The notes under the pieces were generated by a model. That model saw only the letters and a list, made by a program, of their open reading frames with translations, was not told the origin of the DNA and searched no databases. A DNA stretch of 41,187 bases, taken from positions 1-41,187 of the forward strand of contig JAKSLB010000030.1 in assembly GCA_024401435.1 (NCBI GenBank), read 5' to 3'. Origin of the DNA: Paludibacteraceae bacterium. Lineage in GTDB: Bacteria > Bacteroidota > Bacteroidia > Bacteroidales > Paludibacteraceae. Of this stretch, positions 10,002 through 23,134 are shown piece by piece (the first letter of the stretch is position 1; the number at the start of each line of letters is the position of its first letter). Position numbers and translations under genes: made by a program.

Positions 10002-11057
10002 ATGAAAAAAATTACCATCATCGACAAAGATTACAAACAATGGATTAGCGAACTCAGCAGCCGTTATCGCCAAAGTCAGGTTAAGGCCGCCGTCAAGGTA
10101 AACTCAGAAATGTTGCGTTTCTATTGGTCGCTTGGACATGATATTGTTGAACGGAAAATGGAGAACACCTATGGTAGTGGATTTTTCAATCGCCTTAGTG
10201 CTGATTTACAACGTGAACTACCTGATGCAAAAGGCTTTTCGCCCATTAATACAAGATATTTTAAAGCATTTTATGAATTATACTCTCCATTGCAGCAAAA
10301 TCTTCCGCAACTTGCGGAAGAATTGTTTTTTATTCCTTGGGACCATCACCGTCGTATCATTGATAAATGTAAGGACAATCCTCAAAAAGCATTATTTTTT
10401 GTTCAAAAGGTAAAAGATAATAATTGGAGCAGGGCAGTGCTACTCAATTTTCTTGATACAGACCTTTATGAGCGCGAAGGAAAGGCAATGACGAACTTTA
10501 AAATATCATTGCCAGCACCCAATGGTGATTTAGCACAACAAATAATCAAGGATCCATATTGTTTTGATTTTCTGTCTCTCTCGAAAAAATATACCGAAAA
10601 AGAACTTAAGGATGCACTTATGGACAACATACAGAAATTTCTGCTTGAATTGGGAAACGGCTTTGCTTTTGTAGGTAGAGAGGTTCGTGTTGAAGTTGGA
10701 GAAACTGAAAAGTTCATAGACATGCTGTTTTACAACATAAAACTTCATTGTTATGTAGTACTGGAAGTGAAAGTTGAAAAGTTCGATTTTTCAAATGTTG
10801 GACAACTTGGCGGGTACATTGTTGCAATAAATCATCAACTAAAGGGCGAGAACGATAACCCGACCATCGGACTTCTGGTTTGCAAGTATAAAGATAGTGT
10901 GGAAGCCCAATATGCGTTGGAATCCTCGTCACAACCTATAGGCGTGTCTGCATACCAACTTTCCAAACTGATACCAGAAAATTTTAAGTCGTCGCTTCCT
11001 GCTATTGAAGAACTTGAAAATGCATTGGAACACACAAACGAAAATGTGAAAAAATGA
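10002..11057 (+). CDS. YhcG/DUF1016 family PDDEXK nuclease, first paralogue
   Basis: The 351 residues show an N-terminal helical DUF1016 domain (about 10-165; RFYWSLGHDIV, YGSGFFNRLSADLQRELPD) and a C-terminal YhcG-type nuclease domain (about 180-325). The restriction-like active site is visible as Asp240 in KFIDMLFYN and Glu255-Val-Lys257 in VVLEVKVEKF, followed by GQLGGYI. These proteins are DNA nucleases frequent in defence islands and next to restriction systems; the target here is unknown. The gene starts 23 bases after the fold-back element. It is separated from the second paralogue by the leader repeat, so it is probably its own transcription unit. It is only distantly similar to its neighbour, so duplication is old or they arrived separately. 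Confidence 0.88.
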   Translation: MKKITIIDKDYKQWISELSSRYRQSQVKAAVKVNSEMLRFYWSLGHDIVERKMENTYGSGFFNRLSADLQRELPDAKGFSPINTRYFKAFYELYSPLQQNLPQLAEELFFIPWDHHRRIIDKCKDNPQKALFFVQKVKDNNWSRAVLLNFLDTDLYEREGKAMTNFKISLPAPNGDLAQQIIKDPYCFDFLSLSKKYTEKELKDALMDNIQKFLLELGNGFAFVGREVRVEVGETEKFIDMLFYNIKLHCYVVLEVKVEKFDFSNVGQLGGYIVAINHQLKGENDNPTIGLLVCKYKDSVEAQYALESSSQPIGVSAYQLSKLIPENFKSSLPAIEELENALEHTNENVKK

Positions 11058-11246: not shown

Positions 11247-12281
11247 ATGAAAAAAAACAGAAAGATGAACGATACTATTGATCAAATGATACCAAACGCT
11301 TTGATTGACGATGTCCGCACAATCATAGCAAACGCTCGTGCGAATGCCGTGCGAAGTGTTGATTTTTGCCGTGTGCAAATGTATTGGAACTTGGGTAGAA
11401 GAATATTCGAGGAAGAACAACAAGGAAAGGACAGAGCCGATTATGGAGCATACATTGTGAAAACCCTTGCTGAGAATTTGGAAGCCGAGTATGGAAGCGG
11501 ATTTTCGAAACGTCAATTGGAATTATGTCGACAATTTTACCGCATTTATCCAATTGCGAACGCAGTGCGTTCGCAATTAAATTGGACACAGTATCGTCTT
11601 CTTATTCAAATTGATGATCCCGACAAACGGGAATATTACGAATTAGAATCAGTGAATCATGCATGGACGGCGCGGGAGACGGAACGTCAGATTAACAGTC
11701 AGTTGTACGAATGGCTTCTGTTGAGCAACGACAAAGAAGCAGTGCTTGCTGTGGCACGCAAGGAAAGAATTCCGGAAACACCACAGGAAATTATCAAAGA
11801 CCCGATGGTGCTGGAATTTCTGGGATTGGAACGCACCCCATCCTATTACGAAAAAGATCTTGAAAGTACCATCATCACGCATATCACTGATTTCCTTTTG
11901 GAAATGGGCAATGGTTTCACTTTTGTGGCACGTCAGAAACGTATTCTTTTGGAAGATGATGAGTTTTTTGCCGACCTTGTTCTTTATAATCGACTCTTGA
12001 AATGTTTTGTCATTGTCGAACTCAAGACGGGCAAACTCACCCATCAGGATCTGGGACAGTTACAAATGTATGTTAACTACTATGACCGTACCGAAAAATT
12101 AGCAGAAGAAAACCCGACAATAGGCATTCTGCTATGTACAAGCAAGAACGATACTGTCGTGAAGATGGCTTTGCCAGAAAACAACCAAACGATTCTTCCG
12201 AGTGAATACAAACTCTATCTTCCAACCACGGAGCAACTTGTAAAAGAGATCAATGAAGTGAAAATGCTTGCTCAAAAATAA
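11247..12281 (+). CDS. YhcG/DUF1016 family PDDEXK nuclease, second paralogue
   Basis: Same architecture as the previous nuclease: helical DUF1016 part (about 15-165; QMYWNLGRRIFEEEQ, YGSGFSKRQLELCRQFY) and PDDEXK domain (about 180-325). The active site reads Asp243 in FFADLVLYN and Glu258-Leu-Lys260 in FVIVELKTGKL, with HQDLGQLQMYVNYYDR after it. ATG at 11247 is used; ATG at 11265 is an in-frame alternative. The stop is 24 bases before the HNH gene, so this is probably the first gene of the long operon ending with jetD. It is closer to the standard YhcG consensus than the first paralogue. Confidence 0.9.
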   Translation: MKKNRKMNDTIDQMIPNALIDDVRTIIANARANAVRSVDFCRVQMYWNLGRRIFEEEQQGKDRADYGAYIVKTLAENLEAEYGSGFSKRQLELCRQFYRIYPIANAVRSQLNWTQYRLLIQIDDPDKREYYELESVNHAWTARETERQINSQLYEWLLLSNDKEAVLAVARKERIPETPQEIIKDPMVLEFLGLERTPSYYEKDLESTIITHITDFLLEMGNGFTFVARQKRILLEDDEFFADLVLYNRLLKCFVIVELKTGKLTHQDLGQLQMYVNYYDRTEKLAEENPTIGILLCTSKNDTVVKMALPENNQTILPSEYKLYLPTTEQLVKEINEVKMLAQK

Positions 12282-12305: not shown

Positions 12306-13358
12306 ATGATATTACCACAAAACAACAAACTTCCGATTTCCTATCTTGCTGAAATTTTCAACAACACCACTGCTACATATAAGTTTTACTGGTTCGTGGC
12401 AATGCTTGATATCCTTGTAAAAGAGCGTAAGACGAGAATATCGTTTTGGGAAATCATTGCTGGGATGGTGTCGGAATCATGGTATCCGATTCATTATTTC
12501 AAACTCTCATTTGGCAAGGCCGATTCATTGTTTGATAGATCACTTGAAATCCAAAATGCATTTCAAATTTCAATTGAATCTGACAAGAAAATAATTAAGG
12601 AATATTTGCTTGATAATCTAGATAATACAAAAAAGTATCTGCGTGTTTTTACACTCAATGTGCCATATCGATTCCTTTCGCCTTGGATAAAATACACTTA
12701 CGATGAAGACGTGATAAATAAATCGCAAGATTTTGAAAACCAATGCCTTTATGCAATCTATGGAGATGAAATCGTAATCAATGATATTTGGGTTGATTAT
12801 CTTACGGAGAATTACATAATTCTGCGGGATTTTGCTTTTTGGAACCTGGCCGAATTTCTGCAGAAACGCAATCCGAATGTGCCTGACGTGCCATCGAAAC
12901 TTATAAAGCCGATTTTGCGAGACTCTCTTACGAAGCAGCATAAGTTTTGGGACACCTACATTGAAACAGTTGGAAGTATCAATTGCATATATACTGGCAA
13001 ACCGATTTTTGCGAAACAATACGATTTAGACCATTTTGTGCCTTGGAGCTTCGTTTCACACAATCTTTTGTGGAATTTGATTCCTGCTGATCCGAGTGTC
13101 AACTCGTCGAAAAGTAATAATCTGCCTCCGTTGGACGTCTATTTAAAACCATTTGCAGATGTTCATCATGACGCATTGAAAATATTGTACACTAAAAATC
13201 CAAACAACACTTTATTGGAAGATTATCTTATGGTTTATGACTCTGTTCCTAACTTGATAAATCTTTCCGATGAGGAATTTTACAATGTTTTCAAAAAGAC
13301 ATTTTCTCCAATGGTTCAAATAGCGGAAAATATGGGATTTAAAAATTGGAAACTATGA
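12306..13358 (+). CDS. HNH endonuclease domain protein
   Basis: The 350 residues carry a C-terminal HNH nuclease motif: IYTGKPIF, then YDLDHFVPWSF (metal-site Asp242-His243), HNLLWNLIPAD and NSSKSNNLPP. The N-terminal 200 residues (starting with ATYKFYWFVAMLDILVKERKTRISFWEIIAGMV) are helical and resemble the specificity part of HNH proteins in restriction and defence loci. Such enzymes cut DNA; the recognised feature is unknown. The stop codon overlaps the next ATG (ATGA, 13355-13358), indicating translational coupling to the methyltransferase-HIT fusion. Confidence 0.85.
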   Translation: MILPQNNKLPISYLAEIFNNTTATYKFYWFVAMLDILVKERKTRISFWEIIAGMVSESWYPIHYFKLSFGKADSLFDRSLEIQNAFQISIESDKKIIKEYLLDNLDNTKKYLRVFTLNVPYRFLSPWIKYTYDEDVINKSQDFENQCLYAIYGDEIVINDIWVDYLTENYIILRDFAFWNLAEFLQKRNPNVPDVPSKLIKPILRDSLTKQHKFWDTYIETVGSINCIYTGKPIFAKQYDLDHFVPWSFVSHNLLWNLIPADPSVNSSKSNNLPPLDVYLKPFADVHHDALKILYTKNPNNTLLEDYLMVYDSVPNLINLSDEEFYNVFKKTFSPMVQIAENMGFKNWKL

Positions 13359-14227
13359 AAAAGATAAAAAACAATCCTCATCTTACAGCCAAAGAAAGAA
13401 CATCGATTTCTTTTCCTACTCGTTGGCTAAAACAAAACAATCTTTTGAAAGGCGAAATTCTTGATTTCGGCTGTGGTTTTGGTTTCGATACCGACCAACT
13501 TCAAAAAGAAGGTTTTGACATTGTCGGTTACGACAATTACTATCGTCCAGAATATCCCGCAAAACGTTTTGACACCATTATATGTAATTATGTTCTCAAT
13601 GTGCTTGAACCAGAAGAACAGGCGGATGTGCTGATGTCGGTTTCGGAATTGTTGAAGCCAACAGGAACGGCATATTTCACGGTTCGCCGTGACCTGAAAA
13701 GCGAAGGTTTCCGTATGCACTTTGTACACAAACAACCAACATATCAATGCAATGTAGTACTACCGTACAAGAGCGTGTTTTCAAACGAAAACTGTGAAAT
13801 TTACGAGTACAGACATTTCAACAAGACTGATTACAAAAAGAAATATGTTATAGAGCAAGATTGTCCATTTTGCAACTTGAATCCGAATGTGGAGTTGCTG
13901 AGCGAAACGGCAACTGCTGTAGCATTTTTCGACGGCTATCCAGTCAGCAAGGGGCATACACTGATAATTCCTAAACGTCATGTAGCTGATTATTTCGAGC
14001 TGACCACTCACGAACAACGAGCTTTGTGGCTTTTGGTAAATCACTGCAAGAAAATCCTCACAGAACGCTACAACCCCGATGGTTTCAATGTTGGCATAAA
14101 CGTTGGCGAATCTGCAGGACAAAGTATCTTTCATGTACATATCCACTTAATTCCTCGCTACAAAGGCGATGTTGAGAATCCGAAAGGTGGAGTGAGGGGA
14201 GTAATACCATCAAAACAGAAGTATTGA
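13355..14227 (+). CDS. Bifunctional SAM-dependent methyltransferase / HIT domain protein
   Basis: The 290 residues combine two domains. Residues 1-155 form a class I methyltransferase: FPTRWLKQNNLLKGEILDFGCGFG gives the SAM-binding glycines (Asp37, Gly39, Gly41, Gly43). NYVLNVLEPEEQ resembles, from memory, the methyltransferase associated with DNA phosphorothioation loci. Residues 168-290 form a HIT domain with a CPFC pair, a GHTLIIPKRH strand and the catalytic HVHIH (His260, 262, 264). HIT proteins hydrolyse or transfer nucleotidyl groups. ATG at 13355 overlaps the HNH stop; an in-frame TTG at 13346 is less likely. The stop is one base from jetA. Substrates are unknown. Confidence 0.88.
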   Translation: MKKIKNNPHLTAKERTSISFPTRWLKQNNLLKGEILDFGCGFGFDTDQLQKEGFDIVGYDNYYRPEYPAKRFDTIICNYVLNVLEPEEQADVLMSVSELLKPTGTAYFTVRRDLKSEGFRMHFVHKQPTYQCNVVLPYKSVFSNENCEIYEYRHFNKTDYKKKYVIEQDCPFCNLNPNVELLSETATAVAFFDGYPVSKGHTLIIPKRHVADYFELTTHEQRALWLLVNHCKKILTERYNPDGFNVGINVGESAGQSIFHVHIHLIPRYKGDVENPKGGVRGVIPSKQKY

Positions 14228-14228
14228 T

Positions 14229-15683
14229 ATGGGAAATCGCATAAATATATTGGAAATTTTAGAAACGTCTCCAAGCATCATCTTGCTAAGAGCAAAGAAG
14301 TGTGATATAATACTTGAATTTTTCTCAAGCGTTTTTGATACGAATTCTGTAATCTCGTATGAAAATATTCGTACTCAATTGGTCGACTTTTTAAATAACC
14401 GTGAAGTAGTAATCGATGAAGAAAGTGATATTCAAATTTCTGATACATTAGAAGAAAGGGCAGAGAAATATATAAAAAAATGGACGGAGAACGGATTCTT
14501 AACAAATTATAGAAACGAAGATGGAGAGATATATTATGAACTTTCTTCTCATTCAAGCAAGGTTATTGATTGGGTATCAGGATTAAAACAAGAAGAATAT
14601 GTAGGAACAGAATCTAAATTCAAAACGATAATCACGCAACTTAAAGAGTTGGCGGAATACACAAATGAAGATAAAGAGAAGCGCTTGCAATTATTGGAAG
14701 AAAAAAAATTGGAAATCAATCAACAAATTCAACGAATGAAGATGGGTGAAGATGTTAATGTGTTTGAAGAGTTCCAAATTATTCCTCGTTTTCAGCAAAT
14801 TACTAAGTTGGCTAAAGAACTACTATCTGACTTCAAAGATGTTGATGATAATTTCAAGGTTATTATCAAAGAAATATATAAGAAACAGATAGACCCTTCA
14901 TTGAACAAAGGTGGAATACTGCAATTTACATTTGATGCATTGAATGAGTTGAAATCAAGTTCACAAGGAAAAAGTTTTTATTCATTTTGGGAGTTTTTAC
15001 AAACACGCGAAATGCAAACTAATCTGGATTCGCTTATTACGGATTTGTTTCAGACTTTGGAAGAAAGAAATATTGTTGTAAATGATACATTCTTACAAAA
15101 TATGGTATCATACCTGTATAATTCAGGGAGAAAAGTATATCAGACTAACGATAAAATGGCTGTAAAATTAAGCCATATCATTCGTGAAAGCGAGGTGTCA
15201 AAGTCGGATGACACAAAACGCATTATTCAAGGAATCAAAAAGATATTAATTGATGCTTCTATAAAAGATACAAATCCTGACATATCGTTGGACGTTGATG
15301 ATGGGTTGGAAATAAACATTCCTTTTGATAGGAAGATTACATTTGAACAAAGTGAAAACAAGGAATACACTTTGAAACCAGAATCAAGTGTTCTTTCAAT
15401 TGAAGAATTGAGTGAGTTGGGAAAAGTGTTTGGAAATGTAATAATCAACAAAAAAGAGTTGGAACATAATATTAAACAGATTTTGAATAATCAAAGTCAA
15501 ACAACATTGGTCGATGTTATTACGCAAAATCCTTTAAAACAGGGACTGTCAGAGCTTTTCGCATATTTCAGCATATTAAACAAATTTCAGCATACGGTCA
15601 ACGAAAAAAAATTGCAACCTATAATGTTTGATTATGAAAATAATAAACAGATTCAAATTCCAGAAATAATTATTTCACTATGA
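14229..15683 (+). CDS. jetA: Wadjet type I kleisin-like protein JetA (DUF3375)
   Basis: The 484 residues match the DUF3375/JetA pattern: an N-terminal SPSIILLRAKKCDIILEFFSSVF segment, a long helical middle with charged repeats (about 140-200), and a mixed C-terminal part. JetA is the kleisin (MukF-like) subunit of the Wadjet SMC complex that recognises and cleaves small circular DNA such as plasmids. It begins one base after the methyltransferase-HIT stop codon and its own stop overlaps the jetB start (ATGA, 15680-15683). Identification rests on fold pattern plus perfect gene order with jetBCD. Confidence 0.9.
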   Translation: MGNRINILEILETSPSIILLRAKKCDIILEFFSSVFDTNSVISYENIRTQLVDFLNNREVVIDEESDIQISDTLEERAEKYIKKWTENGFLTNYRNEDGEIYYELSSHSSKVIDWVSGLKQEEYVGTESKFKTIITQLKELAEYTNEDKEKRLQLLEEKKLEINQQIQRMKMGEDVNVFEEFQIIPRFQQITKLAKELLSDFKDVDDNFKVIIKEIYKKQIDPSLNKGGILQFTFDALNELKSSSQGKSFYSFWEFLQTREMQTNLDSLITDLFQTLEERNIVVNDTFLQNMVSYLYNSGRKVYQTNDKMAVKLSHIIRESEVSKSDDTKRIIQGIKKILIDASIKDTNPDISLDVDDGLEINIPFDRKITFEQSENKEYTLKPESSVLSIEELSELGKVFGNVIINKKELEHNIKQILNNQSQTTLVDVITQNPLKQGLSELFAYFSILNKFQHTVNEKKLQPIMFDYENNKQIQIPEIIISL

Positions 15684-16249
15684 ACGGCATACAACCATAT
15701 TCAAAAGCCATCGTCGGTTTACTGAAGAAAACCGTCGAGAAGAACTCTCCGATTTGGAACGATATTATCAATTATCAAATTGAAATTCAAGACTATTTGT
15801 CTGTTATTGGATTGGAACTAATTGTCAAAAAAGATGAAGGATTTGCTTTTGTCAAACAAACTGTTAGTGACGATGATACTACTCTAAATTTGGTTTCACG
15901 GCGTCAAATCGGCTTTGAGGCTTCTATTGTCCTTGTTGTATTGCGTCAAATTCTCGAAGATTATGATAGTAATCCAACGGAAACACAGTCAATGGACAAG
16001 ATAATAACCAACAATGAGATTAAGGATGAAGTCAGGTTATTCTTGCCAGAAAAATATGACAAGGCTAAGTTGGAAAAGGATTTAGATAGATATATTCAGA
16101 CTATTGCTGATTTAGGATTTTTAAAAGAAGTTAAGCGTAATAATGATGAAATTCGTTATAAAATACACCGAATCATTAAAGATAAAGTTACGCTCGAAGA
16201 TTTAGATAGGTTCAAAAAAACATTGGAAGAATATGCAAATGCAATATGA
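15680..16249 (+). CDS. jetB: Wadjet KITE-like protein JetB (DUF4194)
   Basis: The 189 residues form a winged-helix-rich DUF4194 protein. Typical stretches are LLKKTVEKNSPIWNDIINYQ, DEGFAFVKQ, SRRQIGFEASIVLVVLRQIL, and near the C-terminus IADLGFLKEVKRNNDEIRYKIHRIIK. JetB is the MukE/KITE-like partner that joins JetA to the JetC ATPase. The start overlaps jetA by four bases and the end overlaps jetC by 17 bases, as usual for this operon. Confidence 0.9.
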   Translation: MNGIQPYSKAIVGLLKKTVEKNSPIWNDIINYQIEIQDYLSVIGLELIVKKDEGFAFVKQTVSDDDTTLNLVSRRQIGFEASIVLVVLRQILEDYDSNPTETQSMDKIITNNEIKDEVRLFLPEKYDKAKLEKDLDRYIQTIADLGFLKEVKRNNDEIRYKIHRIIKDKVTLEDLDRFKKTLEEYANAI

Positions 16250-19200
16250 TTTATTTACAACTGATTCGGATAAAGCAGGATACCGATTGAATTATATGGA
16301 AATATTCAATTGGGGTACATTCAATGGGAAAATATATAAGATTGCACCTCAGGGCAATAACTCGTTGCTTACAGGTGCCAATGCATCAGGTAAAAGCACA
16401 TTGATTGATGCTTTGCTGACATTGTTTGTCCCTTCTAAAAAAGATAGATTTTATAATCAATCGTCAGGAGTTGAGAAAAAAGGAGACAGAACAGAAGAAA
16501 CATATGTGTTGGGAAACTATGGCAACATTCTATCTGAAGGCGAAGTGACCACTAAAAGCCAACAACTTCGAGACAAAAACACATATTCAGTTATATTGGC
16601 ATCATTTGTAAATAATCGTGAAGATGTAGCTACATTATTTCAAGTTCGTTGGTTTTCTAATGGAGATTTGAAATGTTCATATGGCTTTTCATATAAACCT
16701 CTTACTATTAAAAATGATTTTTCGGAATTCAGCGGAAGCAAAGGCGAGTGGAAAAAGGTATTAGAGAAGCGATACAACACAAATGTTCCAAAAAAACAAA
16801 TAGACTTTTATGACACCATAAAAGATTATAAAGACAGAATTATTAATATTTTAGGATTACATTCTGAGAAGGCACTAACGCTTTTTAACCAAATTGTTGG
16901 AGTTAAAGTGCTAAATGATTTGGATGAATTTATTCGCAATAATATGCTTGAACAACGTGATGCAGAAAATGAATATATCCAATTAAACGAAAGTTTTTCT
17001 ACACTAATTGAAGCCCAAACGAAAATTGAAAAAGATAAAGAGCAAATTGCGCAGTTGGAACAGATAGACCAAAAAGCGAAACAATTAGAATCTATCAATT
17101 CTGCACATTACAAAATAAAAGAAACCAAAGAATATGCTGATTATTGGTTCGCTCAAAAGAGTGTTGAACTGGCTAATTCAAAATTAGTTGAATTGAATAA
17201 CAAAGTCGTAGAATTAAAAGAACAACTCGCAAAATTGAATGATGAAAAAGAGCAATTGAAACAACAAGAAAGGACTTTGTCAATAGACATAGAAAATGAC
17301 AATGTCGGTAGACAAATAAAAGATTTGGAACGAGAGATTAGAGGTCTTGAATCTACGAAACAGAATCGTCAAAGAAAACTTGAAGAATACAATAAAAAGG
17401 TGATTGTTGTTGGACTTGACAAAGATCCATCAAATGAGAAATTTAATGAAACCCGAGAAAACGCTAGAAAAGAAAAAGTCAATTGCCAATTAGAATTAGA
17501 ATCTCAAAATGAAAAAATGCGATTGGCAAAGAACAAAGCAGATTCATTGAAAGATGATATTGACGATAATATTGAAACTCTTAATATATTACAGAAAAAT
17601 AGAAACAACATCTCTGGTCGTGAAGCCGAAATTAGAGATATGATTTTGCAAGAAATCGGAGCGACACCTGCAGAAATTCCATTTATAGGTGAACTTATCA
17701 GAGTTAAAGAAGATGAAAAAGATTGGGAAAATACTATTGAAAAGATTCTGCATAATTTTGCCCTTCGTCTAATAGTTCCAGAAAAGTATTACAAGGTGGT
17801 AAACCAGTTCGTCAACTCAAACAATTTGAATGGTAGAATAGTGTACCACAAGTATTCAGAAACAGCATCATTAAGAAGTTTTCAAAAATCATCCCCCAAT
17901 TGTTTATTGACAAAAATAGAATTCAATTCAAAAAGCAAATATTCAAATTGGGTCGAGGATATTATTTCCGACAACTATAATTATGCCTGTGTTTCAAGTC
18001 TAGATGAATTTGCCAAATTTAATGAGAAGGTGGCAACAATTGAAGGTTTGATAAAGTCAACCCATAACAAGCACGAGAAAGATGACCGTCCGCACACAAA
18101 CAAGCGAGAAAACTATGTTTTAGGTTGGGATAACAAAGAAAAACTATCATCAATTCGTGAATTGGTTAAAAACTTGCAAGAACAACAGACTCAAAATTCT
18201 AAAGAAATACGCAATATAGAAGATGAAATCAAAGATATAAATAGAAAAAAAGATTGTTTTGAGTACATTTTCAATGTTTTTACAAAATATGATGATATAA
18301 ATTGGGCAGAAACAGCACGAGTAATACAAGATAAGACGGAAAAGAAAAGAGAGTTGGAAGAAACCAATGATAAGGTAAAAAAAATGGAAGAACAACTAAA
18401 AATTGTTCAAGAATCATTGTCAAAACTTGAAAACGAAACGATAAAAACAAAAGAAAGAGAAATATATCAAATTGAACAAGTTAATGTTGTTGAAGCAAAG
18501 AAAAGGCTGTCAGATAGCAACGAATTTCTTTCCAAATTTGGGACTATTGATGTGTCTACTTTTGAAACCGAAAATGTTAAATGGCTTGATGTCAATTACG
18601 AGAATATTGAATTCAAGCAAAAGGATTTTCAGAAAGATATTCTGCATCAAGAAGAAACGAACAAATTAAAAAAAGAGCAGACAGATCGTGAAGTTTCTAA
18701 CTTGATGATTAAATTCAAGACACCTTCGGACGATATTATTTCAAAATTTAAAGACTGGCGTTCTGAAGTACATAATCTACCAGAAAATATTGATTTTGTT
18801 GGTGAGTATCAAAAACTTTATGCTAGATTAAAAAACGATGATTTGGTAAAACACGAAAAGGAATTTGACAATTATTTGAAAGAAACTATTACAAATAAAG
18901 TTTCTGATTTTAGAATGTTTTTTACCAATTGGGAAAGATCAATAAAAGAAACGATCAGGTCGCTTAATGAGTCACTCAAAGAAATTGATTTCAACACTTC
19001 TCCTTCTACCTATATTCAACTTGTAAACACAAGTAAAATCAATGAAGATATAGCAGTCTTTAAGAAAGAATTGGAGAACGCCATGCCTAATTTCCACCTA
19101 AATGACACTATTGATGGCAAACGAACACATTTTGAGAACAAAATACGACCATTTATAGAACACCTTAAGGAAGAACCTTGGCGCAAAAAAGTTATGGATG

Positions 19201-19640
19201 TAAGGAATTGGTTCTCATACAAAGCCGAAGAATTTTTCAAAGAGACAAACCAAAAATACAAGACCTACGAAAGTATGGGGCAATTGTCAGGCGGAGAAAA
19301 AGCACAGCTCACTTATACGATTTTGGGTTCTGCCATTGCCTACCAGTTTGGTTTGACAAAAGATGGATTACAAGCCAATTCATTTCGTTTTATTGCTATT
19401 GATGAAGCATTTAAAGCGCAAGATGAAGACAAGGCCCGTTATCTAATATCATTATGCAAACAATTACACTTGCAACTTTTGGTTGTAACTCCAAGCGACA
19501 ACATTCATATTGTCGAAAATGACATTTCTTTTGTCCATTATGTTGAACGATTTGGCAATGAATCTCGTTTATTCAATATGCCAATCGAAATTTTTAAACA
19601 AGAACGAGAAAAAAACAATGCCAATGATAACACCAACTGA
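16233..19640 (+). CDS. jetC: Wadjet SMC-like ATPase JetC
   Basis: The 1135-residue protein is the MukB/SbcC-like motor. Walker A is GANASGKST (residues 48-56, Lys54). The ABC signature LSGGEKAQ is near residue 1018, and Walker B FIAIDEAF near 1053. Between them lie two very long charged coiled coils (about 260-470 and 650-960), with a hinge-like globular part near 480-640 (IPFIGELIRV). JetC uses ATP to extrude DNA loops and, with JetA, JetB and JetD, leads to cleavage of circular DNA. ATG at 16233 is used; ATG at 16239 is an in-frame alternative. All ATPase motifs are intact, so the motor itself appears functional. Confidence 0.93.
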   Translation: MQMQYDLFTTDSDKAGYRLNYMEIFNWGTFNGKIYKIAPQGNNSLLTGANASGKSTLIDALLTLFVPSKKDRFYNQSSGVEKKGDRTEETYVLGNYGNILSEGEVTTKSQQLRDKNTYSVILASFVNNREDVATLFQVRWFSNGDLKCSYGFSYKPLTIKNDFSEFSGSKGEWKKVLEKRYNTNVPKKQIDFYDTIKDYKDRIINILGLHSEKALTLFNQIVGVKVLNDLDEFIRNNMLEQRDAENEYIQLNESFSTLIEAQTKIEKDKEQIAQLEQIDQKAKQLESINSAHYKIKETKEYADYWFAQKSVELANSKLVELNNKVVELKEQLAKLNDEKEQLKQQERTLSIDIENDNVGRQIKDLEREIRGLESTKQNRQRKLEEYNKKVIVVGLDKDPSNEKFNETRENARKEKVNCQLELESQNEKMRLAKNKADSLKDDIDDNIETLNILQKNRNNISGREAEIRDMILQEIGATPAEIPFIGELIRVKEDEKDWENTIEKILHNFALRLIVPEKYYKVVNQFVNSNNLNGRIVYHKYSETASLRSFQKSSPNCLLTKIEFNSKSKYSNWVEDIISDNYNYACVSSLDEFAKFNEKVATIEGLIKSTHNKHEKDDRPHTNKRENYVLGWDNKEKLSSIRELVKNLQEQQTQNSKEIRNIEDEIKDINRKKDCFEYIFNVFTKYDDINWAETARVIQDKTEKKRELEETNDKVKKMEEQLKIVQESLSKLENETIKTKEREIYQIEQVNVVEAKKRLSDSNEFLSKFGTIDVSTFETENVKWLDVNYENIEFKQKDFQKDILHQEETNKLKKEQTDREVSNLMIKFKTPSDDIISKFKDWRSEVHNLPENIDFVGEYQKLYARLKNDDLVKHEKEFDNYLKETITNKVSDFRMFFTNWERSIKETIRSLNESLKEIDFNTSPSTYIQLVNTSKINEDIAVFKKELENAMPNFHLNDTIDGKRTHFENKIRPFIEHLKEEPWRKKVMDVRNWFSYKAEEFFKETNQKYKTYESMGQLSGGEKAQLTYTILGSAIAYQFGLTKDGLQANSFRFIAIDEAFKAQDEDKARYLISLCKQLHLQLLVVTPSDNIHIVENDISFVHYVERFGNESRLFNMPIEIFKQEREKNNANDNTN

Positions 19641-20761
19641 AATAAAGCAGAAAGCTGAGAATAAATATTGTTTTTATTTACAGTCGATTGTGAATAGAGA
19701 ATCTTTTTTCCCAATTGTTATTTCTGGCAACAAAAAGCCTGATGAAGATACAGTTAGGTTCGAAAAAGAATTAACCGATTTGATTAATCATTCAAAAGAG
19801 AAAAAAGAATATGGTTACACAATTGACTATCAAACCATAAAAACAAAAAAACATGGTGAGCAAGACATACCTGTTTCAATTAGTTTTCAAGCCGAATCTG
19901 ATTATTTGAAATACATACAAAAAGAAAAAGATACAGAGAAATTCAAATCGGATGTAACAAACATTATCTCGTTGTTTCCTGAATTGAAAGATTGGATTAT
20001 CAAATATCCAAAGAAGGTGATTGAAAATGATTGGAAAAGTATATTGAAGGTATGCCAATATTTTAAGAACACTCCAAATCCACAACTTTATATTCGAGAA
20101 TTACCAATACAAGTTCATACAAAATTCATTGAAAATAATAAAGGTATTCTTAAAGAGTTATTAGATATAATATTAGTAGATAACATTGATGAAAGTGAAA
20201 AGCGTTTTGAAACTCGGTTTCATCTCAAATATGATGAGCCAATTGTACGCTTAAGAATATTAGACACGTCTATTAGTGAATCGTTTTTTTCTGGTGTTGA
20301 TGATTTAAGTATTCCAATCAGCAGATTTCAGTATCTATCTTTGCCTATACAAGCGGTGTATGTCGTTGAAAACAAAATAAACATGTTGACATTTCCAAGA
20401 ATAAAAGATAGTATTGTAGTTTGGGGACATGGTTTTGGAGTGGATGTAATGAAAGATGTAGAATGGATGAAGTCAAAAAAAAATATTTTACTGGGGAGAT
20501 TTGGATGCACAGGGATTTCAAATTCTTTCAGAAATCAGAACACACTTCAAACAGGTTAAAAGTTTTCTGATGGACAGATTAACATTTGACCGTTTTTTTG
20601 AAAAAGATTCAGGTACAAAAACTAATGTAGAAAAAGATCTGGTTCTTACGCAAGATGAAAATGAAATGTTCAAATACTTAAAAGAAAACAACTTTCGATT
20701 AGAACAAGAAAAAATTCCATTTGAATACGTATTAAAACATATTCCAATTGTTTGCTGTTGA
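19618..20761 (+). pseudogene. jetD: Wadjet nuclease JetD (Toprim, DUF2220) with a one-base frameshift
   Basis: Two reading frames together encode a full JetD of about 380 residues. The first runs from ATG 19618 (overlapping jetC by 23 bases) to a stop at 20559. The second supplies the C-terminus, ending at 20761. The switch is in a run of nine A (20475-20483). With eight A the frame would read through as KKIFYWGDLDAQGFQIL. The Toprim glutamate (VVENKI, about Glu251) lies before the break and the DxD pair (GDLD, about 294 and 296) after it. The product of frame one alone would lack the metal site. This may be a true inactivating mutation, a phase-variable or slippage-rescued gene, or a sequencing error. 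JetD is the subunit that cuts DNA in Wadjet. Confidence 0.88.
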
Positions 20762-20845: not shown

Positions 20846-20880
20846 AAAAAAAAACGGACATCATCCCATGTCCGTTTTTT
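20846..20880. terminator. Bidirectional terminator between jetD and der
   Basis: ACGGACAT and ATGTCCGT form an 8-bp stem with a 6-base loop, flanked by an A-run on the left and a T-run on the right, so it can end both the Wadjet operon and the minus-strand era-der unit. Nothing else is seen between 20762 and 20900. Confidence 0.85.
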
Positions 20881-20900: not shown

Positions 20901-22214
20901 TTATTTCTGTCTAATAAATATATTGATAGGAGTACCTGTGAAATTCCATTCCTCACGTAATTTGTTTTCCAAAAAGCGTTTGTATGGCTCCTTTACGTAT
21001 TGTGGTAAGTTGGCGTAAAAAACGAATGTTGGAATCTGTGTGTCTGGTATCTGACTGACATATTTAATTTTGATATACTTACCTTTGATGGATGGTGGCG
21101 GATAGTTTTCGATAATTGGTAAGAAGAATTCATTTAATTTACTAGTCGAAACCTTTCTTTTCTTATTATCATACACCTCTTTTGCCGTTTCCAACACTTT
21201 GAATATACGTTGTTTGGTTACTGCTGACGTGAAGATGATTGGAAAATCATCAAATGGGGCGAAACGTTCACGAACAGCTTTCTCCATGGTAAGAGTACTT
21301 TTAGAATCCTTGTTTGTAATCAAATCCCATTTGTTAATACAAACGACAATTCCTTTTTTGTTCTTCTGAATGAGTTGAACAATGTTCATATCTTGTGCTT
21401 CGATACCACGTGTGGCGTCAATCATCAAAATACATACATCGGAATCTTCGATGGAACGGATGGATCGAATGACAGAAAAATATTCCAAGTCTTCTGTCAC
21501 TTTCCCTTTCTTACGAATACCTGCTGTGTCTACTAAATAGAAATCAAACCCGAATTTAGAAAAACGTGTGTTGGTGCTGTCTCTGGTTGTACCCGCAATA
21601 TCTGTCACAATATATCTGTCTTCACCGATGAATGCATTGATAATCGATGACTTACCTGCGTTTGGACGACCAACTACAGCAAAACGAGGAAGATCATCTT
21701 CTTCAGTTTCTTCCACCTTCTTAGGAAGTGCTTTGAGTACCAAATCAAGTAAATCTCCCGTTCCAGAACCTGAGATAGAAGAGATATTGCTCGGATCTCC
21801 CAATCCTAGTTTGTAAAACTCGGCAGAGTAGTATTGTGCATCAATATTATCTACTTTATTACAAATCAGAATGACAGGCTTTTTATTTCTTCTAAGAATT
21901 TGTGCCACTTGTTCGTCTAAGTCTGTTACACCGCTCATAACATCCACAACGAAGAGAATAACATCAGCCTCTTCAATGGCAATTTTTACCTGTTTGCGTA
22001 TCTCTTCCTCGAAAATATCATCAGAGTTGACAACCCATCCTCCTGTATCTACGATGGAGAATTCTTGTCCGCACCATTCCACTTTACCATACTGACGGTC
22101 ACGGGTAGTTCCAGCCTCCTCGTTAACGATAGCACGACGAGTCTGTGTGAGACGATTGAATAATGTGGATTTTCCCACATTAGGTCTTCCTACTATAGCT
22201 ACTAAATTACTCAT
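20901..22214 (-). CDS. der: Ribosome biogenesis GTPase Der (EngA)
   Basis: Der has two tandem GTPase domains and a KH-like C-terminal domain and acts in maturation of the 50S ribosomal subunit. The first domain begins [15 protein letters not shown] with DTGG and NKVD motifs. The second begins [15 protein letters not shown] with DTAG and NKWD. The C-terminal part holds the GKYIKIKY strand and ends in [15 protein letters not shown] at 22212-22214 is chosen because the protein family starts at MSNLVAIVG; an upstream in-frame start adds 30 residues with no family support and overlaps the era end. 437 residues, normal length. It lies 38 bases downstream of era in the same operon. Confidence 0.97.
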
Positions 22215-22252
22215 AATACATAATCTTAGGGTTAGTGAATGGAAAAGATTTT

Positions 22253-23134
22253 TTATTCTGGTTGATAGCCAAACTCTTTCAGTTTTTTGTCTTTGTTTCG
22301 CCAATCTTTTTCAACCTTGACATATAATTCCAAGAAGACTTTTTTCTCGAAGAAAGCTTCAATGTCTTTTCTGGCTTCCGTACCAATCTTTTTCAACATT
22401 TTTCCGCCTTGACCGATGATAATGCCTTTTTGAGAATCTCTTTCCACAAAAATAACGGCGTTGATACGAATCAGTTTATTGTCTTCCTTAAATTGCTCAA
22501 TAGCAACCTCTACAGAATAAGGAATCTCTTTGTCATAATTGGTCAGAATCTTTTCCCGTATGATTTCAGTCACAAAGAAACGTGCAGGCTTGTCTGTTAA
22601 TGCATCTTTTTCAAAGAATGGAGGAGAGTCGGGTAGAAGATCCTTGATTCTTTTGAGAAGATAGTCTAAATTAAAGTTGTTTTTGGCGGAAATGGGAATG
22701 ATTTCAGCTTCTGGAAGAAGAACTTTCCATTTGTCTACCAATTCAATCAACTTAGGTTGGTCTGTCAAATCAATCTTGTTGACAACTAATATGACAGGAG
22801 CCTTTTGTTTCTTTACTTTTCCTAGAAAATCTGCATTTTTTTCTGCGTTTTCCACTACATCTGTCACATATAGAATGATATCGGCATCCGTAAGAGCACT
22901 GTTGGAGAAATTGAGCATGGACTCTTGTAGCTTGTAATTAGGCTTTAAAACACCCGGAGTGTCTGAATAGACAATCTGGAAATCTTCTCCATTGACGATT
23001 CCTAAAATTCTATGACGTGTAGTTTGCGCTTTAGAAGTGATAATAGATATCTTTTCACCAACTAAAGCGTTCATAAGTGTGGATTTTCCAACATTGGGAT
23101 TCCCCACAATATTTACGAAACCGGATTTATGCAT
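22253..23134 (-). CDS. era: Ribosome assembly GTPase Era
   Basis: Era binds the 3' end of 16S rRNA and is needed for 30S assembly. The 293 residues show G1 GNPNVGKST, switch region [13 protein letters not shown]3 DTPG, G4 NKID, and a C-terminal KH domain with [22 protein letters not shown] at 23132-23134 ([11 protein letters not shown]) matches the family start. The TTG seven codons upstream overlaps the -7 box and is rejected. First gene of the era-der operon. Confidence 0.97.

Follow-up and report, generated by a model that had tools for sequence, protein, structure and literature searches.

Type I Wadjet operons (JetABCD, also described as MksBEFG or EptABCD), defence systems that restrict small circular plasmids, are the closest known systems to the locus analysed here. 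In MksG, the counterpart of JetD, nuclease activity drops drastically with the replacements E236A or D279A, and a pair of C-terminal glutamates has been proposed to act as nucleophiles (PMC10123090; this and the other papers are cited for the excerpts of them that were available). Inactive operons are on record as well, comprising an Ept null strain of Mycobacterium smegmatis (PMC10586767), a Wadjet deletion in Clostridium cellulovorans (PMC12287153) and jetA and jetC pseudogenes in X. fastidiosa (PMC9148166). Here we describe a jetABCD operon in a stretch of 41,187 nucleotides from a Paludibacteraceae bacterium (assembly GCA_024401435.1, contig JAKSLB010000030.1, forward strand), referred to below as the window, in which jetD is divided between two reading frames at a run of nine A (A9). 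As in the inactive operons cited, loss of function is predicted for the window operon, but here the lesion is a one-frame step at A9 in jetD with JetABC intact. We consider that the window jetD is probably a recent loss-of-function allele arising from tract expansion, an ordinary event rather than a built-in switch.

The window lies on contig C129 of a draft genome of 3.83 Mb in 204 contigs, which is 93% complete. Gene order and profile searches place jetA, jetB, jetC and jetD next to each other on one strand at 14229-20761, so that all four genes of a type I Wadjet are present in the same order as in the described systems. The top PADLOC models for the four proteins are JetA1, JetB1, JetC1 and JetD1, and on these grounds the cluster is classed as type I Wadjet. 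This is further supported by a profile built from three intact relatives, which matches the solved structures of MksG (8b7f) and JetD (8q72 and 7til). The window differs from these systems in that its jetD spans two frames, and the in-frame product lacks the DxD motif and the E-Q-E motif.

Results

The jetD gene is read in two frames

The first frame of jetD runs on the forward strand from ATG 19624 (alternative ATG 19618) to TAA 20557-20559 and encodes 311 residues with the DUF3322 domain and the first half of the Toprim domain. The remainder of the Toprim domain is encoded one base further on, in a second forward-strand frame at 20471-20761 (codon starts 20471, 20474 and onwards), which is preceded by an in-frame TGA at 20468-20470, is open over 20471-20758 and ends with TGA 20759-20761. 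The point of frame change is the A9 run at 20475-20483 (+); across the genome, A or T runs of exactly this length number 161, this one included.

Profile matches divide at the same place. The first-frame product covers all of DUF3322 and positions 2-86 of the 179 in the Pfam profile JetD_C, while the second frame matches positions 84-177 with 87.2 bits (E 1.1e-24). Similarly, the two pieces cover positions 1-292 and 286-376 of the PADLOC JetD model PDLC00522 (382 positions), and the JetD search of the phylum draw described below placed the first-frame piece at 19624-20493. Because the two pieces abut in the profile, they represent one gene in two frames and not a chance similarity. A prior sequence-only reading had proposed that the jetD frame closes at 20559 and that the next frame continues the family sequence, as the abutting JetD_C and PDLC00522 pieces confirm; its estimate of about 380 residues for the rejoined product fits the 374 and 376 residues of intact relatives (n=2). 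Profile searches found no further piece of jetD in the rest of the genome, which is 93% complete, and within the same limit no second working jetD that could act in trans.

The break separates the catalytic residues

Catalytic residues were placed by alignment to the solved JetD(E248A) and MksG chains and to the MksG mutants E236A and D279A. The Toprim Glu codon (in VVENK, 20368-20370, +) lies in the first frame and aligns with A248 of JetD(E248A) in chain 8q72_M. In the alignment to MksG and JetD, the DxD metal-ligand motif (GAT TTG GAT, 20498-20506, +) and the E-Q-E of RLEQEKI with the proposed nucleophile glutamates (20702-20710, +) are found in the second frame only. The break thus falls between the Toprim Glu and the DxD ligands, as had been proposed from the sequence, and no single jetD frame of the window holds the complete Toprim site of Glu, DxD and E-Q-E. 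Since DxD and E-Q-E are located beyond the break, the 311-residue product is expected to be nuclease-dead.

We also considered, and rejected, a split gene whose two polypeptides jointly form the Toprim domain. From TGA 20468-20470 to the first Asp codon at 20498 the second frame contains no ATG, GTG or TTG, and a separately started second half-protein is therefore unlikely.

The nine-A tract is absent from the other sites compared

Eight nearby loci were read, namely L003 (same-genus genome G002), L004 (same-family G045), L005 (same-order G076) and the named loci L036-L040. These amount to about five distinct genes, as the L003 protein recurs at 100% identity in L036 and at 98% in L037, and the L039 site equals that of L004. 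jetD is uninterrupted in all eight. The window gene thus presents as a pseudogene, with a conserved and needed part disrupted and with orthologues intact elsewhere.

For the tract itself, 51 loci were scanned and gave 39 distinct sites other than the window, four of them from frame-split copies (L081-L084). The remaining 12 loci comprise eight repeated sites, L052 and L053, which do not fit the motif, the broken copy L085 with an A run of four, and the window itself (L057) with nine. The longest A run just 5' of DxD is at most seven in 39 of 39 sites; L005 and L040 reach seven, and the other 37 have no more than six. Comparing tract lengths in related jetD genes, which had been put forward as a check, therefore leaves nine A to the window alone. 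The slot ahead of DxD is rich in lysine in several relatives, so an A tract is able to grow there. As no A run above seven occurs at the other sites, the tract is not a conserved switch, and the conservation of a slippery tract among orthologues that marks programmed slippage is missing.

These counts bear directly on evolved phase variation, i.e. a contingency switch that toggles the nuclease in sub-populations. A run of nine A is mutable, and phase variation of restriction-modification genes is reportedly on record. Nine A is, however, short for a contingency locus, and a comparable tract occurs in none of the 39 other sites, which makes such a switch very improbable.

The second frame shows no decay

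Relative to the nearest relative L040, the second part of jetD is 77.0% identical and the first part 75.7%, with NG86 pN/pS values of 0.121/0.71 and 0.146/0.643, respectively; synonymous sites are near saturation between the window jetD and its relatives, which makes any dating rough. Against G002 the second part of the window gene is less similar (60.5%) than the first (70.3%), but L040 gives the same picture against G002 (61.6% and 71.0%), and the lower likeness of the second part is thus not peculiar to the window. There are no stop codons in the 95 codons of the second frame. Neither stops nor a raised pN, the signs of relaxed selection after a break, are therefore seen in jetD, as would be expected if the break is very recent. 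Because the second frame carries no stops and is conserved like the first, the break appears recent; strictly, the comparison shows no more than that the break is young relative to the divergence from L040, or that the second frame remains in use.

Slippage as a route to full-length JetD

A frame that is still conserved also favours the view that transcriptional (or ribosomal) slippage yields a minority of full-length JetD and that the operon works at low dose. Genes with poly-A slippage, such as Citrobacter rodentium tssM1, Shigella mxiE and Thermus dnaX, share with the window jetD a run of at least nine A (PMC4256274, PMC1088944). According to the excerpt of PMC1088944, nine is a known, mutable slippage length, the A9 of Thermus dnaX slips strongly so that about half of the product is altered, and a large proportion of genomes avoid nine-base A/T runs within coding regions. 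In our genome sample the share of A/T runs lying in frame within coding sequence falls with run length (83/261 of seven, 23/105 of eight, 1/28 of nine), in keeping with an avoidance of nine-base runs inside genes. The interrupted tssM (tssM1) of C. rodentium resembles the window gene further, with an A run ahead of a premature stop and an intact downstream frame; there an A11 tract is rescued at 20-25% by an added A, and its complementary DNA carries 10 to 15 A, so one-A-short transcripts also occur (PMC4256274). In Buchnera, homopolymer deletions increase with run length (PMC5574713).

The direction of slippage argues the other way. RNA slippage in A/T runs mostly adds bases, and E. coli rarely shows deletions there, as stated in the accessible part of PMC5574713. 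In the window one extra A shifts reading into the third frame, where a stop follows at 20568-20570, so that the favoured slip, with a preference taken from papers on other hosts, misses the JetD frame. The tract is also A9 rather than the A11 of tssM1, is not conserved and is absent in the relatives read, and in contrast to the described slippage genes a full-length product of the window jetD is hypothetical. Slippage rescue of jetD is therefore possible but not favoured, and we regard a minority of functional JetD made in this way as distinctly unlikely. Accidental slippage or reversion at A9 is nevertheless possible, because nine is a length known to slip and the A11 case gave one-A-short transcripts.

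Two ribosomal events were considered separately. A classical minus-one slip on A-AAA-AAA enters the third frame and meets the stop at 20568-20570; a plus-one slip on the A run is possible on paper. A 26-mer of the tract site had no matches in a scan of viral contigs.

A combined model would treat A9 as a reversible, dose-limiting control, in which JetD is mostly nuclease-dead and an active form arises from rare slippage during replication or transcription. The nuclease-dead JetD may then sit on JetABC as a dominant brake, and plasmid restriction would operate weakly or be limited to a minority of cells. We hold this model, including its consequence for restriction, to be quite improbable.

A9 as an assembly error

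Homopolymers are a common place for indel errors, and the genome is a draft of many contigs. An assembly or consensus error, in which the true tract length differs and jetD is intact in the cell, would also account for a second frame without decay. We therefore scanned 441 kb of the same genome (20 stretches of 20 kb and the window), scoring coding potential on both sides of each run over 150 bases. Of 138 classed A/T runs of at least eight, 20 lie in frame within genes; 19 of these are eight bases long and one is nine. Five runs were flagged as frame changes, namely the one in jetD and four (L091, L093, L096, L100) that on reading proved to be gene boundaries. A lower threshold gave a sixth flag, the run of eight at L106:3949-3956, as a possible further frame change, which speaks for error. 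Sensitivity was limited, since with a scoring span of 120 bases jetD itself was not flagged. Within the same operon, jetA retains an in-frame A8. The assembly thus does not suffer from homopolymer breaks in general, although for A9 the bound is weak, since the sample contains only one further A9 that lies in frame within a gene. Taken together, we judge an error in the assembly to be rather unlikely. A further coding-potential scan, for which the jetD site served as calibration, yielded 100 clusters, many of them with an ATG beside the upstream stop; the full reading covered 13 clusters.

Two other genes of this genome deserve mention. L106:3688-4271 (-) is an orphan membrane-protein-like gene near T7 and T8 runs in which a frame change is possible; no homologue was found in the others among 101 related genomes, and Pfam gives one weak match. 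At L099:658-1190 (-) a C-5 cytosine DNA methylase gene appears broken, with pieces in different frames matching positions 99-197 and 268-323 of 324 in DNA_methylase and the stretch between them in neither frame.

Broken Wadjet genes in the phylum

In a draw of 395 genomes of the phylum, JetD matched in 55. Among the 76 JetD matches listed, 50 cover at least 345 of the 382 profile positions, and three of these 50 have a stop inside; 14 of the 76, shorter or at edges, were left uncounted. Frame-split jetD was found in six copies: the window, and G694, G550, G757, G749 and G484, the latter five all belonging to f136, a Bacteroidota family other than that of the window. Like the window gene these five are divided over two frames, and in G694 and G484 the break falls between the same residues, the Toprim Glu and DxD. 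Of the five, G694 comes closest to the window, with an intact jetC directly upstream. In G484 the break lies at a C7 run, and the copy is at a contig end with the second DxD Asp also changed. G757 and G484 additionally have a near-full-length jetD copy elsewhere. The f136 genes differ from the window at the break itself: no run of six or more is listed in the jetD of G694, G757 or G749, that of G550 is away from its break, and the run in G484 is of C, not A. Our literature search, which left most subscription papers uncovered, returned no publication describing a frameshift in jetD at a run of A.

A JetA search of 58 genomes gave a single match in each of 52 genomes and no match in the other six. 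The 52 matches include no frame-split copy, though the one in G609 contains an internal stop and those in G714 and G546 are clearly shorter. By coordinates, the jetC next to jetD is frame-split in G496 and in G765, as is an additional jetC copy of G633. Preferential breakage of jetD is accordingly not borne out, and breakage of the Wadjet operon is ordinary, not shown to aim at jetD. This weighs against the idea that JetABC has been freed from the nuclease and kept as an MksBEF-like condensin. JetABC is indeed intact in the window, but too little time has passed since the break for a retention of JetABC in the absence of JetD to be evident, and with jetC split in the wider sample there is no bias to jetD. 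We regard such a freed complex as extremely improbable.

Extra jetD copies or remnants were observed in some genomes of a Bacteroidota family other than that of the window (G633:C33, L109 and L110; G694:C86, L112; G730:C39, L113; G757:C5, L114 and L115). Several are preceded by the 3' end of jetC only, and several lie at contig ends. At G633:C33, repeated units of the jetC end and jetD share about 90-92% DNA identity. We read the extra copies as probable partial tandem duplications or cassettes.

The operon and its neighbours

The sequence-only reading had also held JetA, JetB and JetC to be intact, and each is indeed one unbroken open frame with profile matches. jetA (14229-15683, +) encodes a kleisin (DUF3375) of 484 residues (PF11855, 2.6e-85; PDLC00444, 1.2e-181), and its A8 run at 14701-14708 stays in frame. 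jetB (15680-16249, +) encodes a KITE protein of 189 residues (DUF4194/MksE-like; PF13835, 4.9e-34; PDLC00487, 1.9e-59). jetC (16233-19640, +), detected as a single copy in the whole genome at its 93% completeness, encodes an SMC-like ATPase of 1135 residues that matches PF13555 and PF13558, and residues 7-1129 align with positions 8-1121 of the 1123 in PDLC00512 (E=0). It carries the Walker A, signature and Walker B motifs of an SMC ATPase, which we take to be GANASGKST, LSGGEK and FIAIDEAF, respectively. The operon ends with a terminator-like hairpin of 13 pairs, A- and T-tailed (20849-20880, +; 1 found against a mean of 0.3 in shuffles).

The next long frame after jetD in the window is an EngA-like GTPase gene at 20901-22304 in the opposite direction; in a close relative it is a Fic/DOC domain protein (L036:9359-10300, +). 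Upstream of the Wadjet operon are two neighbouring YhcG/DUF1016 PDDEXK nuclease genes (10002-11057 and 11247-12281, +; best PADLOC match PDC-S02), and with them the region looks like a small defence island. Between these and the operon, an HNH gene (12306-13358, +; HNH_4, with a weak Cas9 match) overlaps a gene for a methyltransferase-HIT domain fusion (13346-14227, +). A near-full-length HNH gene is present in 12 of 101 genomes including that of the window, and the fusion gene directly adjoins it in all 12. In the 11 other genomes identities are 49-81% for HNH and 65-87% for the fusion, one fusion gene being cut by a contig end. Only two of the 12 (G000, G002) have Wadjet in these searches, and the pair looks like an independent two-gene module.

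A type IX secretion system (T9SS) sorting domain is present elsewhere in the window. The five named relatives include a rumen Bacteroidales assembly, a yak-rumen Paludibacteraceae assembly and Paludibacter sp. 221. Both observations point to a Bacteroidota host, which is probably a gut commensal.

Discussion

The sequence-only reading had left three fates for JetD: inactivation, phase variation, or low-level production by slippage. Inactivation is best supported, with DxD and E-Q-E lost and no second copy found, while evolved phase variation and programmed slippage find no support, given that the tract is absent in relatives and the favoured slip runs into the stop at 20568-20570. In the sequence of events that we propose, an A-rich lysine stretch just 5' of the DxD strand would have lengthened to nine A, probably by replication slippage. 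The expansion would have shifted jetD out of frame, and the operon would recently have lost its nuclease. With a nuclease-dead product of 311 residues, plasmid cutting through the window operon would cease, whereas JetABC would perhaps still be made and perhaps still translocate on DNA. As a young event in a mutable tract, the break may occasionally revert without an evolved switch.

Three points weigh against recent loss of function. The ninth A could be a consensus error, as the analysis is based on assembled sequence. Conservation of the second frame is equally expected of a gene still in use. Finally, the comparison covers one strain of the species, and the allele may not be fixed.

For defence annotation, callers that count genes would score the window operon as a complete Wadjet, though the nuclease is very probably not made. 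If it is true that slippage makes some JetD, the tract would be a simple means of limiting the dose of a nuclease that endangers its own cell. With JetD lost, the operon would represent a natural case of JetABC without a working JetD, the state proposed, in the accessible part of PMC10586767, as ancestral to MksBEF-type condensins.
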